This document shows, one piece after another, positions 12,852 to 21,825 of a DNA stretch of 64,000 nt. This DNA is from Bradyrhizobium sp. ISRA430. Its GTDB lineage: Bacteria > Pseudomonadota > Alphaproteobacteria > Rhizobiales > Xanthobacteraceae. The number at the start of each line of letters is the position of its first letter. Position 1 is the stretch's first letter. The notes beneath the pieces are model-generated. The model searched no databases. It was not told the origin of the DNA and saw nothing but the letters and a program-made list of their open reading frames with translations. The DNA lies in assembly GCF_029909975.1 (NCBI RefSeq), contig NZ_CP094516.1, positions 5,332,001 through 5,396,000 of the forward strand. Direction: 5' to 3'. Both the position numbers and the translations under genes were made by a program.

Positions 12852-13595
12852 ATGCACACGATCGTACTGGCCACCCAAAAGGGTGGCAGCGGCAAGAGCA
12901 CGCTTGCCATCGGCCTTGCGCTGGCAGCCAGGCATGCCGGCTTCACCGTCCGCCTGATCGAGACCGACCCGCAGGGCACCCTGTCGAGCTGGCAGCGCCG
13001 CCGCGGCGATGCGGATCCCGTCGTCGAGCCGATCTATCACGCTGCCGACATCGCGCCGCGCCTGCAGATGCTGGCTGGCAGCGGCCTCCAGCTTGCGATC
13101 GTCGATACCGCGGCGGGCCTCAGCGCCGCGACCACCGCCGCGATCCGCCATTGCGATCTCTGCCTGATCCCGGCGCGCCCGAGCGTCGCCGACATCGAGG
13201 CCACCGCCTCGACGCTGAGCGTCGCGCGCGCCTGGAAGCGGCCCTTTGGCTTCGTCCTGAACCAGACCCCGATCCGCGGCCAGCGCATCGACAATGCGGC
13301 CAACAGGCTTGCCGACGAAGCGGCGCTCGACCTCGCCGACGTGCTCGCACGCCCGCTGATCGTGATGCGCAACGACCACCAGGATTCGCTCGCGGCCGGC
13401 CTTGCCGTCAGCGAGTTCGCACCGAACGGCAAGTCGGCGGACGAGATCCGCGGGCTATGGCGCTGGATCGAGACCCGGCTCGAGCTTTCGGCTGCGACCA
13501 ATCCTCTGATCGACCAGGTCATTCCGGAGGCGGACGGAATGCTGCACGTCGCCGTCACCGAGCTCTCATCGAGCGAGACGACACTGGCGTCCTGA
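12852..13595 (+). CDS. Orphan ParA/MinD-family ATPase
   Basis: A 247-residue deviant Walker P-loop ATPase. The motif KGGSGKST covers residues 10-17, with the signature Lys at K10, then ETDPQGTLSSW and DTAAGLS as switch regions. Such ATPases position DNA, chromosomes or protein clusters. No parB, parS or flagellar/chemotaxis partner is adjacent, so the cargo is unknown. The ATG at 12852 has AAGGAAG eight bases upstream. The ggt gene is divergent 239 bp away. Confidence 0.88.
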   Translation: MHTIVLATQKGGSGKSTLAIGLALAARHAGFTVRLIETDPQGTLSSWQRRRGDADPVVEPIYHAADIAPRLQMLAGSGLQLAIVDTAAGLSAATTAAIRHCDLCLIPARPSVADIEATASTLSVARAWKRPFGFVLNQTPIRGQRIDNAANRLADEAALDLADVLARPLIVMRNDHQDSLAAGLAVSEFAPNGKSADEIRGLWRWIETRLELSAATNPLIDQVIPEADGMLHVAVTELSSSETTLAS

Positions 13596-13727
13596 GCGGG
13601 GCGATCGCTCGAGACGCCGGCCGGGCGCGCTTCGCTATCCGGTCGCGAAGCACCCAAGCGGCGAAGCAATCCGGCCACCAGCCCGGCCGGATTACTTCGC
13701 TTCGTTTCTCGGAAGCTCCATCCATCC

Positions 13728-13807
13728 CGTCATTGCGAGCGCAGCGAAGCAATCCAGAATCTTTCCGCGGTGACAGTCTGGATTGTCTCGCTGCGCTCGC
13801 AATGACG
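13728..13807. repeat. Long inverted repeat between parA-like gene and mutM
   Basis: Two 31-bp arms (13728-13758 and 13777-13807) are complementary at 29 of 31 positions around an 18-bp loop. Core motifs are CGTCATTGCGAGCGCAGCGA on the left and its complement on the right. It lies between convergent genes, so the hairpin could end both transcripts. It may also be an interspersed repeat of the genome. Confidence 0.75.
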
Positions 13808-13857
13808 TCCGTGGTGAGCTCGTCACGCTCACGGCCTTTCGGCCGCAAGTCCGATCC

Positions 13858-14739
13858 TCATTTCTGACATTTCGGACACCAGAAGGTCGAACGGCCGTTC
13901 TGGGTGAAACGCTCGACCGTGCCGCCGCAACCGGGCGTCTTGCAGACGCCGCCTTCGCGGTCATAGACCTTGAACGAGTGCTGGAAATAGCCGAGCTCGC
14001 CTGAGGTCTGGCGATGATCGCGCAGCGACGAGCCGCCGGCCTTGATCGCATCGTTCAACACGGTGTGGATCGCGCCGACCAGCCGCTTGGCATGATCGCT
14101 CGGCTCGCCCTTTTTGGTCGCGAGCGTGGCGGCGATCCGCCGCGGCGACAGATGCGAGCGATGCAGCGCCTCGCAGACATAGATGTTGCCGAGTCCCGCC
14201 ACCACGCGCTGGTCGAGCAGCGCAGCCTTCAGGCTCGTGGTCTTGCCTGCGCAGGACCGCGCCAGCATCGCAGCATCGAATTCATTGCCGAGCGGCTCGG
14301 GGCCGAGTCCGCGCAGCAACGGCTCCTCGTCGAGCGCGTTGCGCGCAATCACTTTCATGTAACCGAAGCGGCGCGGATCGTTGAAGACGACGTCGGCGCC
14401 GGAGGACATCCGAAACAGCACGTGGTCGTGCGTGGTGTCCTTGCCGCGCGGATAGTGAAACTCGCCAGGCGCCACGTCGTTGTCGGGCTTGATGACACGG
14501 AATGAGCCCGACATGCCCAGATGCATCAGCAGCACATCGCCGGAGACGAGATCGGCCATGAGATATTTTGCGCGGCGGCCGAGCCCGGTGACGACCTGCC
14601 CTCGGAGCCGGGCCACGAAATCCGGCTGAAAGGGAAAGCGCAAGTCGGCGCGGCGGGCCTCCGCACTCAAGATCTTGGCACCCTCCATGACGGGCTGGAG
14701 GCCGCGGCGGACGGTCTCGACTTCGGGCAATTCAGGCAT
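13858..14739 (-). CDS. mutM: Formamidopyrimidine-DNA glycosylase MutM
   Basis: Base-excision repair enzyme that removes 8-oxoguanine and ring-opened purines and nicks the abasic site. The 293-residue protein begins [14 protein letters not shown], so the catalytic Pro2 and Glu3 are present. A Lys in [11 protein letters not shown] acts in catalysis. The C-terminal zinc finger has CKTPGCGG ... FWCPKCQ with all four Cys. It is divergent from ubiE with 81 bp between. Confidence 0.97.
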
Positions 14740-14820: not shown

Positions 14821-15582
14821 ATGGATCGGCCGGGCGATACCACGCATTTTGGCTTCAGGGACGTCCCGCTAGGGGACAAGCAGACGCTGGTGAACGATGT
14901 GTTTCACAGCGTGGCGTCGCGTTACGACCTGATGAACGACCTGATGTCGGGCGGCCTGCATCGGGTCTGGAAAGACATCATGATCAACACGCTCGATCCG
15001 CCGAGGGGCGACCGGCCGTTCGCGCTGCTCGACGTCGCCGGCGGCACCGGCGACATTTCCTTCCGCGCCGCCAAGGCGGCGGGCCCCGGCTTCCACGCCA
15101 CCGTCTGCGACATAAACGCCGACATGCTGGCCGTGGGACGCGAGCGCGCCGCCAAGCAGCATCTGGAGACCCAGATCGACTTCGTCGAAGGCAATGCCGA
15201 AGCCCTCGCCTTTGCCGATCGCAACTTCGACGCATATACGATTGCTTTCGGCATCCGCAACGTGCCGCGGATCGATCTCGCCTTGCGCGAGGCCTATCGC
15301 GTGCTGAAGCCCGGCAGCCGTTTTCTGTGCCTGGAGTTTTCCACCGTCGAGGTGCCCGGGCTCGACCGGCTCTATGACCTGTTCTCGTTCAAGGTGATCC
15401 CGCCGCTCGGCCGCATGGTGACGGGCGACGCCGAGTCCTATCGCTATCTCGTCGAATCGATCCGCAAGTTTCCGAAGCCCAACGCCTTCGCCGACATGAT
15501 CCGTGATGCCGGCTTCGCCCGGGTGAGCTGGCAAACCTTGTCCGGCGGCATCGTCGCACTGCATTCGGGCTGGCGTTTGTGA
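14821..15582 (+). CDS. ubiE: Demethylmenaquinone/2-methoxy-6-polyprenyl-1,4-benzoquinol methylase UbiE
   Basis: SAM-dependent C-methyltransferase of ubiquinone synthesis. The 253 residues include the family motif [21 protein letters not shown], the SAM loop [15 protein letters not shown] and the C-terminal [12 protein letters not shown]. The ATG at 14821 with GGAG upstream gives a normal length. The stop overlaps the GTG start of ubiB (GTGA), implying translational coupling in a ubiE-ubiB unit. Confidence 0.97.
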
Positions 15583-17153
15583 TCTCTGCCATCCCCCACA
15601 TTGCGCGCCTGATGCGCGCCGCGTTCGTGTTCGCGCGCGAGGGCGTGTTCGGTTCCGTCGATCCGAGCCTGGTCCCGCCGCCCGGGCAGCTTGCGCTGAA
15701 GCTCGCGCGCCTCATCGAGCGGCGCGGCCCCAAGCACGGGCCGCGCGTGTCGCGCGCGTTGACGCGGATGGGCCCGGCCTATCTCAAGCTCGGGCAATTC
15801 CTGGCAACGCGCCCCGACGTCGTCGGCGTCAACATCGCGCGCGATCTTGAAAGCCTCCAGGATCGCCTGCCGCCGTTTCGGCAAGAGGACGCCGAGGCCG
15901 CCATCGTGACCTCGCTGGAGCGTCCGCTCAAGGATGTGTTCGCAAGCTTCGGTCAGCCGGTCGCGGCCGCCTCGATCGCGCAGGTGCATCGCGGCGAGGT
16001 GTTGCGCGACGGTATCCGCAAGCCGGTCGCGATCAAGGTGCTGCGGCCCAATGTGGCCGGGCGCTTCCGCCGCGACCTCTCCGATTTCTTCTTCGTCGCG
16101 CACAAGGCCGAAGCCTACTCGGCCGAAGCGCGGCGCTTGCGCCTCGTCGAGGTCATCAACACCATGTCCCGCGCGGTCGCCATGGAGATGGACCTGCGGC
16201 TGGAAGCGGCTGCGTTGTCGGAGATGGCGGAGAACACGCGCGACGATCCCGACTTCCGCGTGCCTGCGGTCGACTGGGACCGCACCACGCATAACGTGCT
16301 GACGATGGAGTGGATCGACGGCATCGCGCTGAACGATCACGCCCGCTTGCAGGAGGCACAGGTCGACCTGCCCGATCTCGGCCGCAAGATCATCCAGAGC
16401 TTCCTGCGTCACGCGCTGCGCGACGGCTTCTTCCACGCCGACATGCATCCAGGCAACCTGTTCCTGGACGATACGGGCCGTCTCGTCGCGGTCGATTTCG
16501 GCATCATGGGCCGGCTCGGGCTGAAGGAGCGACGCTTCCTCGCCGAGATCCTGCTCGGCTTCATCACCCGCGACTATCGCCGCGTGGCAGAGGTGCATTT
16601 CGAGGCGGGCTATGTGCCCGCGCATCACTCGGTGGAGAATTTCGCGCAGGCGATCCGTGCCATCGGCGAGCCGATCCACAACCGTACCGCCGAGGAAATC
16701 TCGATGGCGCGGCTGCTTACGCTGCTGCTCGAGGTCACCGGCCTGTTCGACATGCGCACCCGGCCCGAACTGATTCTGCTGCAGAAAACCATGGTGGTGG
16801 TCGAGGGCGTGGCGCGCGGCTTCGATCCCAGGCTCGACATCTGGAAGACCGCCGACCCCGTGGTGCGCGAATGGATCCAGCGCAATCTCGGCCCAATCGG
16901 CCGGGTGCAGGGCGCGCTCGCCGGGACCGGCGACCTCGCCCGTGTGCTGGCGAATCTGCCCGACATCGCCGCCCGCTCGGCCAAAGTGCTGGAGCAGCTC
17001 GAGACCATGACGCGGGAGGGCCTGCGGCTGTCGCCGGAAAGCATCGCGGCGATGGGCCGCAGCGAGGGCCGCAAGAACCGCTGGCGCACTGTGGCGCTCT
17101 GGATCATCGCGGCGACCTTCATCGGCATCCTGATCGCGGTCCGGAATCTATGA
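15579..17153 (+). CDS. ubiB: Ubiquinone biosynthesis protein UbiB (ABC1/ADCK atypical kinase)
   Basis: Atypical protein-kinase-like ATPase required for ubiquinone synthesis, acting at the inner membrane. The 524 residues carry the family KxGQ motif at K70-Q73 ([12 protein letters not shown]), the Ala-rich nucleotide loop [11 protein letters not shown], the catalytic [11 protein letters not shown] and the metal-binding VDFGIMG. A C-terminal membrane segment ([17 protein letters not shown]) ends the protein. GTG at 15579 overlaps the ubiE stop. An ATG 33 bp further in is an alternative. The stop lies in a 17-bp palindrome. Confidence 0.95.
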
Positions 17154-17167
17154 TTGCACTGCAATCA
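17151..17167. promoter_or_regulatory. Palindrome at the ubiB stop, upstream of coaBC
   Basis: TGATTGCA-C-TGCAATCA is a perfect 8+1+8 palindrome. Its first three bases are the ubiB stop codon. It lies just 5' of the tandem repeats at 17171-17216, so it may be an additional protein site or part of the coaBC promoter. It is too AT-rich and has no T-run, so it is not a terminator. Confidence 0.4.
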
Positions 17168-17170
17168 TGT

Positions 17171-17216
17171 GGGTGATAGCATCGCTATCATTCGGGTGAT
17201 AGCATCGCTATCATTC
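17171..17216. promoter_or_regulatory. Tandem operator-like repeats before coaBC
   Basis: Two identical 23-bp repeats (17171-17193 and 17194-17216) stand head to tail. Each contains the 17-bp palindrome TGATAGC-ATC-GCTATCA, centred at 17182 and 17205, 23 bp (about two helical turns) apart. They end 7 bp before the GGAGGG Shine-Dalgarno of coaBC, ideal for a repressor. TGATAGCA-type half-sites are what I recall for the FitAB antitoxin complex of Neisseria, and coaBC itself starts with a FitA-like domain. Autoregulation is inferred. Confidence 0.7.
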
Positions 17217-17232
17217 CGTGCTGGAGGGCGTC

Positions 17233-18672
17233 ATGGCAAGCCTGACCATCCGCAAGCTCGACGAGAACGTCAAAACCTATTTGCGCCTGCGCTCGGCCAA
17301 GAACCGCAGATCGGTCGAGGAAGAGGTCCGGGTTATCCTGCGCGAGCTGATCGAGGGCCGCGAGGAGCCGCTGACGCCATTGGCGGCACCACCCGATGCC
17401 GCTCCAGCCCCGGCATCCCAGCGCACCAGCGCGCTTCCCGAGGCCAGCGTCACCCTGATCATCGGCGGCGGGATCGCGGCCTATAAATCGCTCGATCTGA
17501 TCCGCCGGCTTAAGGAGCGGCGCATCGAGGTCCGGTGCGTGCTCACGAAGGCGGCGCAGCAGTTCGTGACGCCGCTTGCGGTGGGCGCGCTCTCGCATGA
17601 GCGCGTCTACACCGACCTGTTCGACCCGCAGAGCGAGTTCGATGCCGGCCATATCCGGCTGGCGCGCGATTGCGATCTGATCGTGGTGGCACCGGCCACG
17701 GCCGATCTGATGGCCAAGATGGCAGGCGGCCATGCCGATGATCTTGCCAGCGCCATCCTGCTCGCCACCAACCGGAAGATTCTGCTCGCGCCGGCGATGA
17801 ATCCGTTGATGTGGAACAACGCGGCGACGCGGCGCAACGTCGCGCAGCTCCAGCGCGACGGCGTGGTGCTGATCGGGCCGAATTCCGGCGAGATGGCCGA
17901 AGCCGGCGAAGCCGGCGTCGGCCGCATGTCGGAGGCGATCGAGATCGCATCCGCCGTCGAGCGCATGCTGCGTCCGCCGGTGCCACGCCCGCTCGCCGGC
18001 AAGCGCGTGCTGATTACCGCCGGTCCCACGCATGAGCCGATCGATCCGGTGCGCTACATCGCCAACCGCTCCTCCGGCAAGCAGGGCTTTGCCATCGCGG
18101 CGGCCGCACAGGCTGCGGGCGCCGAGGTCATTTTGGTGAGCGGCCCGGTCGACCTCGACGATCCCGACGGAGTTGCGGTCAAGCATGTCGAATCGGCGCG
18201 GCAGATGCTGGAGCATGTCCAGGCCTCGCTTCCGGTCGACATCGCGATCTTCGCGGCGGCCGTCGCCGACTGGCGGGTTGCCAATGAAGGCGAGCAGAAG
18301 CTGAAGAAGACACCGGCAGGCATGCCGCCGCTCCAGCTCGTCGAGAACCCCGACATCCTCGCCACGATTTCGAAACTGACAGACAAGCGCCCGCCGCTCG
18401 TCATCGGCTTTGCCGCCGAAACCGAGCATCTCATCGATAACGCCAAGAGCAAGCTCGAGCGCAAGGGCTGCGACTGGATCGTGGCCAACGACGTCTCGCC
18501 TGCGACCGGCGTGATGGGAGGCGATCGCAACACCGTTCACCTCATCAGCCGCAAAGACGGCGAGATCGCAGTTGATTCCTGGCCGGTGATGACCAAGGAA
18601 CAAGTCGCCACCGAATTGATCGCACATGTCGCAAAGAGCGTGGCCGACAAATCCCTGGAGCCCGCGTCTTGA
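17233..18672 (+). CDS. coaBC: CoaBC with N-terminal FitA-like ribbon-helix-helix domain
   Basis: Bifunctional coenzyme A enzyme: CoaB joins 4'-phosphopantothenate to cysteine with CTP and CoaC decarboxylates the product with FMN. Residues 1-45 ([20 protein letters not shown] then [14 protein letters not shown]) are not part of CoaBC but match FitA-type ribbon-helix-helix antitoxins. A Pro/Ala linker follows (~46-72). CoaC (~75-250) keeps the His in GHIRLAR and PAMNPLMW, but the substrate clamp reads [15 protein letters not shown] and lacks the usual Cys. CoaB (~255-470) has [12 protein letters not shown], the KLKKT lysines and VANDVS. ATG 17233 is chosen for the GGAGGG before it. The stop overlaps dut. 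Confidence 0.93.
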
Positions 18673-19127
18673 GCACGAAAATCACAGTCGAACTGCAACG
18701 CTTGGCCCATGCCGACGGCCTGCCGCTGCCGGCCTATCAGACCCCTGAAGCCGCCGGCCTCGACCTGATGGCGGCGGTTCCCGAGGATGGGCCCCTGACG
18801 CTGGCACCCGGCAAACATGCGCTGGTGCCGACGGGACTGGCGATCGCCTTGCCGCCCGGACACGAGGCCCAGGTGCGGCCGCGCTCCGGGCTCGCCGCCA
18901 AGCACGGCGTCACCGTGCTGAACTCGCCGGGAACGATCGACGCGGACTATCGCGGCGAGATCAAGGTTATCCTGATCAACCACGGCGACGCGCCCTTCGT
19001 GGTCAAACGCGGCGAGCGCATCGCGCAAATGGTGATCGCACCCGTGGTGCAGGCCGCACTGGTTCCTGTCGCTGCGCTGTCGGCGACCGATCGCGGCGCC
19101 GGTGGTTTCGGCTCGACCGGCCGCTAA
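18669..19127 (+). CDS. dut: Deoxyuridine 5'-triphosphate nucleotidohydrolase (dUTPase)
   Basis: Hydrolyses dUTP to dUMP, keeping uracil out of DNA and feeding dTMP synthesis. The 152-residue trimeric enzyme shows the five family motifs: [44 protein letters not shown] and the C-terminal [10 protein letters not shown]. The start is a TTG at 18669 that overlaps the coaBC stop (TTGA), the same coaBC-dut coupling seen in many Proteobacteria. Confidence 0.96.
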
Positions 19128-19320: not shown

Positions 19321-21825
19321 ATGTCAGGCGTGATCGTGTCGATGCGTCGGACGCTGTTGTCGTGCACATCGCTGGCGCGCAACGGCCTTATGGGAAGTGC
19401 GCTGGCGGCGTTGCTGCCGGCAGCGCCTGCTCAGGCCGCCGACCTCGTCGACGCCCTCTCTACGTTGCTCGACTTCAACCGGCAGGAAGTCGCGGTGCTG
19501 ACCACCGCGCTGTCTCTGCTCGGCTTCTCGGTCGTGGCCGCGATCCTGTTGATGCGCACGCGCGTGCGCACGGCAAAGAACGAGGCGCGGCTGCGCGCGC
19601 GAATCGGCGAACTGCAGCTCCAGGCCGACCGCTTGAGTGCGTTGCTGTTTGCCGAGCCGCAGATCCTGATCTCCTGGCCGGCCGGCGACAGCCGCGCGCA
19701 AATCTCGGGCGACATCTCCATGGTGATGCCGCGCGACGCCTCGCCGCAGCGCGTGCTCGCTTTCGGAACCTGGCTGCCGCCAGAACCGGCGCTGTGGATG
19801 GACCGTGCGGTCGACGCGCTGCGCGACCATGGCGACGGGTTCCAGCTCACTCTGACCACCGCCAACGGTCACACGCTCGAGGCCATCGGCCGCGCCATCG
19901 GCGGCCAGGCCATTGTCAGGATTCGTGAACTGTCGGGCCTGCGACGCGAACTGGCCGAGACCAGCCTGCGCCACAAGGCGCTGCTCGACGAGACCGAGAT
20001 GCTGCGCGGCTTCGCCGCGGCGGCCCCGTGGCCGATCTGGGCCAAAGCCGAGAACGGCGCGCTGGCCTACGCCAATGCTGCCTATGTGCGCGCGACAGAG
20101 GCGACGAGCATCATCGACGCCCAGGCGCGCAAGCTCGAGCTGCTCGACAGCGCCGACCGCACCGCCATGGAGCGGAGCCTGAAGGAGGCCGCTCACTTCG
20201 CCTCGCGGCTGCCGATCGTGATCGGCGGTGAGCGCCGCATCTACGACGTGCACGCCGTCAATGTCGGCGGCGGCAGTGTCGGGGTTGCTATAGACGCCAG
20301 CGAAGCGGATGCGCTGAGCTCGGCGCTGGTCCGGATGGCGGAAGCGCATCGCCGCACGCTCAATCAGCTCTCCTCGGGCGTTGCCGTGTTCGACGGCCAG
20401 CGACGCCTCGCCTTCTACAATGACTCCTATCGGCGCCTGTGGGACCTCGACCGCACGTTCCTCGACAGCAATCCCGACGATTCCAGCGTGCTCGACCAGC
20501 TTCGTGCCGCGCGCAAATTGCCGGAGCAGCCGGACTTCCGCGCCTGGAAGGCCAAGCTGCACGAGGCTTATCGCGCGGTCGAAACCGCAAAGGACACCTG
20601 GTTCCTGCCTGACGGGCGCGCGCTGTCCGTCGTCACCACGCCGAACCCGGAAGGCGGGGTCACTTATCTGTTCGACGACGTCACCGAGAGCCTCGATCTC
20701 GCCCGCCGCTTCGATGGCCTGATCCGCGTCCAGCGCGAGACGCTGGACAGCCTCGCCGAGGGCGTGGCGGTGTTCGGCAGCAACGGCAAGGCGCAGCTAT
20801 TCAACCCGGCCTTTGCCAGGATGTGGAAGCTGTCGAGCGAGGCGCTGCGCGAGGCGCCGCATATCCAGACGGTCGAAGGCTGGTGCCACCAATTATTCGA
20901 CGACCCCTTCGTCTGGCGGCAGATCCGCGAGGCCATCACCTCGATCGAGAACCGCCTCGACGTACCGCTGAAGCTGGAGCGAAAGGACGGCAGCGTGCTG
21001 GACGGCATGATCCGGCCGCTGCCGGACGGGGCGACCATGCTGACCTTCCAGGACATCACCGACACCGAGAACGTCGAGCGTGCCCTGCGCGAACGCAACG
21101 AGGCGCTGGAGGCGGCCGACCAGATGAAGGTGGATTTCGTCCACCACGTCTCCTACGAGCTGCGGGCGCCGCTCACCACCATCATCGGCTTCGCGCATTT
21201 CCTCAGCGATCCCTCGACCGGGCCGCTGACGCCGAAACAGGCCGAATATCTCGACTACGTCACCAAATCGACCAACGCGCTGCTCGCGCTGACCAACAAC
21301 ATCCTCGATCTTGCCACCATCGACGCCGGCGCCATGAAGCTGGAGCTCGGCCCGGTGGACGTCAGCAAGACCATTGAGCTAGCCGCCGAAGGCATCCAGG
21401 ACCGGCTCGCCACCGACCGCATCCGCCTCAAGGTCGAGATCGCGCCCGATATCGGCAGCTTTATCGGCGACGAGAAGCGCGTGGTGCAGGTGCTCTATAA
21501 CCTGCTCGCCAACGCCGTCGGGTTTTCTCCCCAGGATTCGGCCGTCGGCATCAGCGCGCGACGCACCGAGCGCAGCGTGGTCTTCACTGTGACAGATTCT
21601 GGGCCTGGAATACCTGCCGACATGAAGGACAAGGTGTTCAACTGGTTCGAAAGCCGCTCGCAGGGCTCGCGTCACCGCGGCGCCGGGCTGGGGCTGTCAC
21701 TGGTGCGCTCCTTCGTCGAGCTGCATGGCGGCAAGGTGCGGGTGGATTCGATCGTCGGCAAGGGCACGGTCGTGATCTGCGACTTCCCGACCGACCAGGC
21801 GGCGCATCGCGACGCCGCCGAATGA
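19321..21825 (+). CDS. divL: DivL-type PAS sensor (tyrosine in place of the kinase histidine)
   Basis: An 834-residue membrane-anchored sensor related to Caulobacter DivL, which binds DivK~P and controls CckA-CtrA cell-cycle signalling. A signal/TM segment is followed by TM residues ~57-79 (VAVLTTALSLLGFSVVAAIL), then two or more PAS domains (ANAAYVRATEA, LAFYNDSYRRLWDLD, AQLFNPAFARMW). The dimerisation box reads FVHHVSYELRAPLTTIIGF: Y612 replaces the phospho-accepting His of SHELRTPL, as in DivL. The ATPase keeps LYNLLANAVGF, DSGPGIP and GAGLGLSLVRSF. Start ATG 19321 follows GGGG. The stop overlaps tsaE. Confidence 0.88.
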   Translation: MSGVIVSMRRTLLSCTSLARNGLMGSALAALLPAAPAQAADLVDALSTLLDFNRQEVAVLTTALSLLGFSVVAAILLMRTRVRTAKNEARLRARIGELQLQADRLSALLFAEPQILISWPAGDSRAQISGDISMVMPRDASPQRVLAFGTWLPPEPALWMDRAVDALRDHGDGFQLTLTTANGHTLEAIGRAIGGQAIVRIRELSGLRRELAETSLRHKALLDETEMLRGFAAAAPWPIWAKAENGALAYANAAYVRATEATSIIDAQARKLELLDSADRTAMERSLKEAAHFASRLPIVIGGERRIYDVHAVNVGGGSVGVAIDASEADALSSALVRMAEAHRRTLNQLSSGVAVFDGQRRLAFYNDSYRRLWDLDRTFLDSNPDDSSVLDQLRAARKLPEQPDFRAWKAKLHEAYRAVETAKDTWFLPDGRALSVVTTPNPEGGVTYLFDDVTESLDLARRFDGLIRVQRETLDSLAEGVAVFGSNGKAQLFNPAFARMWKLSSEALREAPHIQTVEGWCHQLFDDPFVWRQIREAITSIENRLDVPLKLERKDGSVLDGMIRPLPDGATMLTFQDITDTENVERALRERNEALEAADQMKVDFVHHVSYELRAPLTTIIGFAHFLSDPSTGPLTPKQAEYLDYVTKSTNALLALTNNILDLATIDAGAMKLELGPVDVSKTIELAAEGIQDRLATDRIRLKVEIAPDIGSFIGDEKRVVQVLYNLLANAVGFSPQDSAVGISARRTERSVVFTVTDSGPGIPADMKDKVFNWFESRSQGSRHRGAGLGLSLVRSFVELHGGKVRVDSIVGKGTVVICDFPTDQAAHRDAAE

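Follow-up and report, generated by a model that had tools for sequence, protein, structure and literature searches.

A FitA-like ribbon-helix-helix domain fused to CoaBC co-occurs with repeated 8-bp boxes upstream of its gene

Described relatives and the coaBC locus of Bradyrhizobium sp. ISRA430

PutA is a proline dehydrogenase with an N-terminal ribbon-helix-helix (RHH) repressor domain and known ligand control. The RHH-CoaBC protein analysed here is likewise a flavoenzyme with an N-terminal RHH domain which is predicted to repress its own gene, and it differs from PutA in the enzyme, the pathway, the operator and the RHH family. With the VapBC-type module FitAB of Neisseria gonorrhoeae (2h1o, 2bsq) it has in common the RHH family PF22513 and the 8-bp sequence TGATAGCA, which we take to be the half-site of the Neisseria FitAB operator. 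Unlike FitAB, the coaBC locus has no PIN toxin partner, and the C-terminal part of the antitoxin is replaced by CoaBC; its half-sites also lack the N12 spacing of the fitA-fitB pair in the window genome. Mycobacterium smegmatis CoaBC (6TGV) is described as a dodecamer with CoaC at its core; it shares the two catalytic domains, and its CoaC is given as residues 1-179, hence without an RHH domain, and the M. tuberculosis enzyme is reported to be inhibited by CoA thioesters (PMC7794376). The recruitment of antitoxins as host transcription factors is the subject of a review (PMC8987985). At coaBC, in contrast to such regulators, the RHH domain forms part of a housekeeping enzyme, on whose gene it seems to have retained its operator. 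Our literature search, which covered open-licence papers, returned no description of RHH-CoaBC or of its operator.

We analysed 64,000 nucleotides of Bradyrhizobium sp. ISRA430 DNA (contig NZ_CP094516.1, positions 5,332,001 to 5,396,000), called the window in the following. The features of the locus are collected in Table 1. The reading frames on both sides of coaBC are, as we presume from their sequences, ubiB and dut. The coaBC product scores 389.2 bits with the equivalog model TIGR00521 (cut-off 219.7), which identifies it as CoaBC. A reading made from the sequence alone had proposed that the gene begins with a FitA-like domain, and indeed PF22513 matches the N-terminus with 49.4 bits at a cut-off of 27. 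In a sequence search of the PDB the sole matches were the FitA entries 2h1o and 2bsq, both weak (E = 0.27 and 0.28).

Table 1. Features at the coaBC locus (positions in the window)
Feature	Position	Strand	Basis and remarks
ubiB, upstream neighbour (name presumed from its sequence)	15579..17153	+	open reading frame; TGA stop at 17151-17153
Distal putative operator TGATTGCACTGCAATCA	17151..17167		two 8-bp boxes 9 bp apart; kept in relatives; overlooked in the sequence-only reading
Putative -35 element TTGCAC inside the distal operator	17154..17159	+	TTGCNN-N17-TAKCAW pattern; absent from the calls of the stricter scan
First perfect 23-mer copy, putative operator TGATAGCATCGCTATCA at 17174-17190	17171..17193		sequence and genome pattern search
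Putative -10 element TAGCAT inside the middle operator	17177..17182	+	TTGCNN-N17-TAKCAW pattern
Second perfect 23-mer copy, putative operator TGATAGCATCGCTATCA at 17197-17213	17194..17216		duplication found in this genome only
Ribosome-binding site GGAGGG of coaBC	17223..17228	+	sequence
RHH-coaBC, FitA-like RHH and phosphopantothenoylcysteine decarboxylase / phosphopantothenate-cysteine ligase, 479 aa	17233..18672	+	open reading frame; PF22513; TIGR00521
RHH domain, residues 2-38	17236..17346	+	PF22513
Linker, residues 42-69	17356..17439	+	pLDDT below 50 in the full-length model
CoaC flavoprotein domain, residues 73-241	17449..17955	+	PF02441
CoaB domain, residues 254-438	17992..18546	+	PF04127
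dut, downstream neighbour (name presumed from its sequence)	18669..19127	+	open reading frame; overlaps the end of coaBC

In RHH domains residues of the strand face the bases. Thr5 and Arg7, taken to be such residues in the fused domain, are invariant in all 121 fused proteins, and Ser3 is found in 113 of them. A strand position which is usually hydrophilic is a Val in FitA (PMC3325190). The monomer models contain the two helices without the strand, namely helices 6-23 and 28-40 for the domain alone (pLDDT 64.7) and helices 11-24 and 28-41 for the full-length protein (pLDDT 70.1). We judged the confidence of both models too low to base a fold search on them.

The fusion is found in many root-nodule bacteria and relatives of theirs. 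Residues 1-60 were compared with 5.8 billion proteins, and 1698 of 1876 candidates pass E = 0.001. Among the best 120 of these 1698 matches all have PF22513 and PF02441 and all but two PF04127; their source names are mostly those of an ordinary CoaBC, and one is called "plasmid stability protein". In a sample of the order a CoaBC match was obtained in 191 of 199 genomes. Among the places listed, fused genes stand side by side with plain CoaBC in two families, the one to which the window belongs (f1) and a further large one of the order (f24). In the sample of the class (285 of 385 genomes matched) none of the places listed outside the order aligns to query residues 1-17. Among the best 80 of 547 matches we find, as named holders of the fusion, many records of Bradyrhizobium, Rhodopseudomonas, Nitrobacter winogradskyi, Afipia and Pseudolabrys.

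Elsewhere in the window we noted a large sensor-kinase-like reading frame (19321-21825) with the motif VSYELRAPL, in which a tyrosine stands in place of the expected phospho-accepting histidine; it presumably resembles DivL. Two short stretches at 13555-14051, whose translations share LRAQR(S/D)NP and LDC(L/F)AALAMT, are perhaps a dispersed intergenic repeat.

The boxes upstream of coaBC and their link to the fused domain

The sequence-only reading rested on two perfect tandem palindromic repeats in front of coaBC. These are present, as the identical 23-mers GGGTGATAGCATCGCTATCATTC, each enclosing the palindrome TGATAGCATCGCTATCA. The distance to the ribosome-binding site had been given as 7 bp; the gap is 6 bases from the second 23-mer and 9 from the palindrome. 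In the genome of 8,564,906 bases the exact palindrome is confined to this tandem, and exact TGATAGCNNNGCTATCA occurs twice, both times at coaBC in the window. When up to three mismatches to TGATAGCNNNGCTATCA are allowed, the window contains 6 matches against 1.6 expected, a number which none of 100 shuffles reached. A third related site, TGATTGCACTGCAATCA, lies one 23-bp step upstream of the tandem, its first three bases being the stop codon of ubiB. The pattern TGATNGCANYGCNATCA finds these three sites and no others in the genome.

Comparison across loci shows that the conserved unit is not the palindrome. It is an 8-bp box, TGATNGCA, which occurs in either orientation and recurs most frequently at a 9-bp step. 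There are 263 exact boxes in the 200 bp upstream of 121 fused genes and 4 in the 300 bp upstream of 106 non-fused genes. Among the distances between exact boxes in the fused set 9 bp is the commonest (77 pairs), followed by 23 (25), 14 (15), 18 (13) and 32 bp (12). The best pairs of 118 loci are inverted in 65 (61 and 4 by orientation) and direct in 53 (48 and 5), and the palindrome is thus not what is conserved. The peak at 9 bp and the mixture of inverted and direct pairs suggest that the binding unit is best read as one box per RHH dimer. The earlier proposal that two dimers sit on nearly the same face with centres 23 bp apart needs correction, as each palindrome consists of two adjacent boxes 9 bp apart. 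The window therefore holds six boxes, with spacings of 9, 14 and 23 bp.

The perfect tandem, on which much weight had been placed, is a peculiarity of this genome among the 80 named loci and 60 genomes of the genus. Counted as non-overlapping box pairs, two operators are present in 55 of the 80 named loci, one in 23, none in two and three in none. Since two operators are commonest, the tandem is a duplication of the proximal operator. In the genus at least three exact palindromic matches on one strand are found only in the window genome and in one other (G1092), where the third match sits on a different contig. In 18 of the 60 genomes there is no exact palindromic match, with a pattern that leaves out variants and direct repeats; the same pattern written backwards has no match in any of the 60.

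We then scored the upstream sequences for two boxes (TGATNGCA or TGCNATCA) one base apart, that is 14 specified bases, and took 12 of 14 as threshold, over 200 bp for fused and 300 bp for non-fused genes. A box pair is present upstream of 118 of 121 fused genes (70/72 in f1, 48/49 in f24) and of 1 of 106 non-fused genes (f1 1/26, f24 0/29, others 0/51, one of these f1). Dinucleotide shuffles reached the threshold in 3 of 605 cases for the fused and 2 of 530 for the non-fused upstreams. The motif had been spotted by eye on loci among L041-L100; of the loci fetched after its discovery (L161-L220) 55 of 58 reach the threshold, 2 of the 60 being unscored. In the named loci 78 of 80 fused genes have box pairs, in genomes which overlap in part with the earlier set. 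The sequence-only reading had let its case depend on strains that keep the fusion and lose the repeats. Such misses are just 3 of 121 (L166, L169, L220) and 2 of 80, one of the latter being Rhodopseudomonas palustris JSC-3b (L326), whose matches are the same as those of L169. Thus, at the level of sequence, the link drawn there between protein domain and DNA motif is right and much stronger than it had been stated.

The loci are related, with 27 of the 121 fused genes from one genus. The CoaBC tree of 171 rows needs at least 13 changes between fused and non-fused, and 12 are needed on the 169 rows with upstream DNA; the states of domain and operator are discordant in 3 of these 169. In a phylogenetic sign test all five well-supported independent pairs are concordant (p = 0.0625 with n = 5 only).

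The upstream sequences below threshold (L166, L169/L326, L220 and L354, the last from Nitrobacter winogradskyi) belong to fused genes and are candidates for secondary losses or drifted operators. In Rhodopseudomonas pentothenatexigens (L351), a species whose name hints at a need for pantothenate, the fusion is retained together with an operator of 12 of 14.

The boxes also lie where a promoter might be. In 19 of 27 loci of the same genus the pattern TTGCNN-N17-TAKCAW extends across the two operators, and of the 59 promoter-like elements with a score of 9 or more 52 share bases with a box. TTGCA belongs to the box itself, so that the overlap with the -35 element is partly built in and suggestive only. 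A stricter promoter scan of 17050-17260 returned none on the forward strand and one on the reverse strand (9 of 12); terminator-like sites were not found at the locus.

Toxin-antitoxin modules between ubiB and coaBC

The larger finding is that a toxin-antitoxin module occupies the same slot in relatives. A FitA-like gene immediately precedes coaBC in 18 of the 108 loci without the fusion, 14 of them in f24, 3 in f1 and 1 in another family (L132, L133, L135, L141, L145-L147, L150-L152, L156, L158-L160, L122, L127, L104, L033). All 18 have a PIN gene or a remnant of one between the FitA-like gene and coaBC (12 by one PIN profile, 6 by another), and all 18 have ubiB upstream. In 11 of the 18 a box pair scoring 12 or more out of 14 precedes fitA, at most 900 bp from coaBC; a twelfth locus, L133, has a pair elsewhere, and the loci lacking such a pair include L033 and all three from f1. 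Of the 88 non-fused loci without an upstream RHH gene 4 have a box pair, and the relics L038 and L131 are two of these.

Several stages of decay are represented. In L104 fitA remains beside a PIN gene reduced to 32 codons, L038 has a truncated PIN gene and a perfect box pair with the antitoxin absent, L131 a truncated antitoxin and L143 a PIN fragment. Among the 61 fused loci with enough upstream DNA L091 retains fitA and PIN, and L137 retains a fitA. Neither PIN profile matches the 1500 bp upstream in the window locus (L041), where the neighbours are ubiB and dut. FitA-PIN modules or remnants of them stand in the ubiB-coaBC slot in several families.

As FitA-PIN modules occur in this slot in non-fused loci, we suggest that the domain and the operator probably derive from a toxin-antitoxin module, most likely a FitAB/VapBC module like those between ubiB and coaBC, after loss of the PIN toxin. 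Positions 24-27 are mostly N-G-R-S in the fused RHH domains, and most neighbouring antitoxins differ from this. On a tree of 44 residues three label changes suffice between fused domains and toxin-antitoxin antitoxins. The present neighbouring modules thus need not be the direct donors, and both observations together put a single ancient fusion, followed by losses or transfers, on a par with several fusions. Many independent fusions from present-day neighbouring modules find no support in the RHH tree, which has too few columns to settle the question.

The window genome also encodes a fitA-fitB pair (PF22513 and the PIN family PF01850). Its upstream region carries TGCTATCA-N12-TGATAGCA, with a half-site spacing of 20 bp, whereas the boxes at coaBC are mostly 9, 14 and 23 bp apart; in the fused set the 20-bp spacing is found once with exact boxes and 20 times with one mismatch, versus 77 and 232 times for 9 bp. 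TGATAGCATTACAATCA ends 19 nt before the fitA ATG, at the same distance as the last site before the coaBC ATG. At a second standalone FitA-like gene (C1:4272791, L009) we noted TGATATCATCGCAGTTA and, upstream, the half-site ACTATCA.

Our search, which covered palindromic sites, gives no support to a broader regulon: exact sites occur in this genome at coaBC only. Besides fitAB there are six places with a single mismatch, of which L250, L251, L253 and L254 fall inside one of the four longest open reading frames of their locus and L252 and L003 do not. In the 60 genomes of the genus other exact palindromic matches are few and varied in sequence.

Proposed autorepression and its alternatives

From the computed features, that is the boxes, the domain, their co-occurrence, the box spacing, the promoter-like overlap and the toxin-antitoxin modules and relics in the slot, we infer binding, repression, ligand control and a direction of evolutionary change. 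The repeats are very likely the operator of coaBC, to which RHH-CoaBC would bind and so repress its own promoter. RHH dimers formed by the N-terminal domains of a CoaBC oligomer would sit on the 8-bp boxes in either orientation. The boxes, packed at 9 bp and often accompanied by a second pair 22-23 bp away, would lie over the likely -35 element and, within the genus of the window, over the likely -10 element as well. Because promoter elements are covered, the bound enzyme should block its own transcription and keep CoaBC at a set level. Binding could plausibly be tuned by a ligand of CoaBC, such as CoA thioesters, CTP, phosphopantothenate or FMN. In its anatomy and co-occurrence the locus resembles that of an autoregulating, PutA-like trigger enzyme, with a predicted DNA-binding domain on the enzyme and boxes on its own promoter. 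If the dodecamer is kept, one may speculate that its twelve RHH domains pair up as six dimers, which would contact several boxes simultaneously and could couple binding to the CoA state; the window contains six boxes as well.

A separate FitA-like antitoxin, encoded elsewhere, could instead bind the boxes and control coaBC in trans, in which case the domain on CoaBC would be a passenger or have another role. The window genome does encode a fitA-fitB pair with the same box, and FitA-like proteins elsewhere in these genomes could share the boxes. Yet the boxes follow the fused domain on the same gene (118/121 versus 1/106), and 14 of 24 non-fused genomes of the family have FitA-like proteins, each with at least one copy away from coaBC, while all their coaBC upstreams stay below 12; the other 10 have no FitA-like protein and are therefore uninformative on regulation in trans. 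The invariance of Thr5 and Arg7 in the fused domain also speaks against it. In our view a trans-acting antitoxin is thus improbable. That the fused protein activates coaBC, or that the boxes mainly dock the enzyme on DNA, is quite improbable. RHH proteins such as AmrZ are described as both activating and repressing (PMC3325190), but the boxes overlap the -35-like and -10-like elements rather than standing upstream of them, which speaks against activation.

The palindromes might also work as RNA, as leader hairpins which affect translation or the stability of the transcript. The repeats of the window fold as two hairpins (-26.3 kcal/mol, z = -2.93, equalled by 1 of 200 shuffles), and the last of them is close to the coaBC ribosome-binding site. 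Against this reading speak the conservation of the box letters and the 53 direct repeats among the 118 best pairs. Two direct sites were folded: L079 gives no hairpin confined to its site, but L078 forms one, since the box is near-palindromic, which leaves the direct-repeat argument for DNA weak. The comparison with Rfam gave a single match, which stays below the gathering score of its family (22.6 bits versus 50), and the distal site overlaps a promoter-like -35 element. A role as RNA is thus extremely unlikely. The overlap of boxes and promoter, the invariant strand residues, operators restricted to one gene and the precedent of antitoxins together make autorepression by RHH-CoaBC the most economical reading.

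It is conceivable, though we put this forward with considerable reserve, that a toxin-antitoxin module beside an essential gene of coenzyme A synthesis has become a feedback circuit in this way: the toxin was lost, the DNA-binding domain of the antitoxin was taken into the enzyme, and the enzyme would read the CoA status, for instance by binding of a CoA thioester to CoaB, and set its own transcription. The rule of 8-bp boxes at a 9-bp step is a testable binding code for FitA-like RHH domains. The plain, module-adjacent, relic-bearing and fused loci form a natural series for the passage from a selfish toxin-antitoxin module to host regulation. CoA synthesis is described as controlled by feedback on enzyme activity (PMC7794376). 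If CoaBC indeed controls its own transcription, then Bradyrhizobium, Rhodopseudomonas, Nitrobacter, Afipia and others, as well as the family f24, would have a further level of control.
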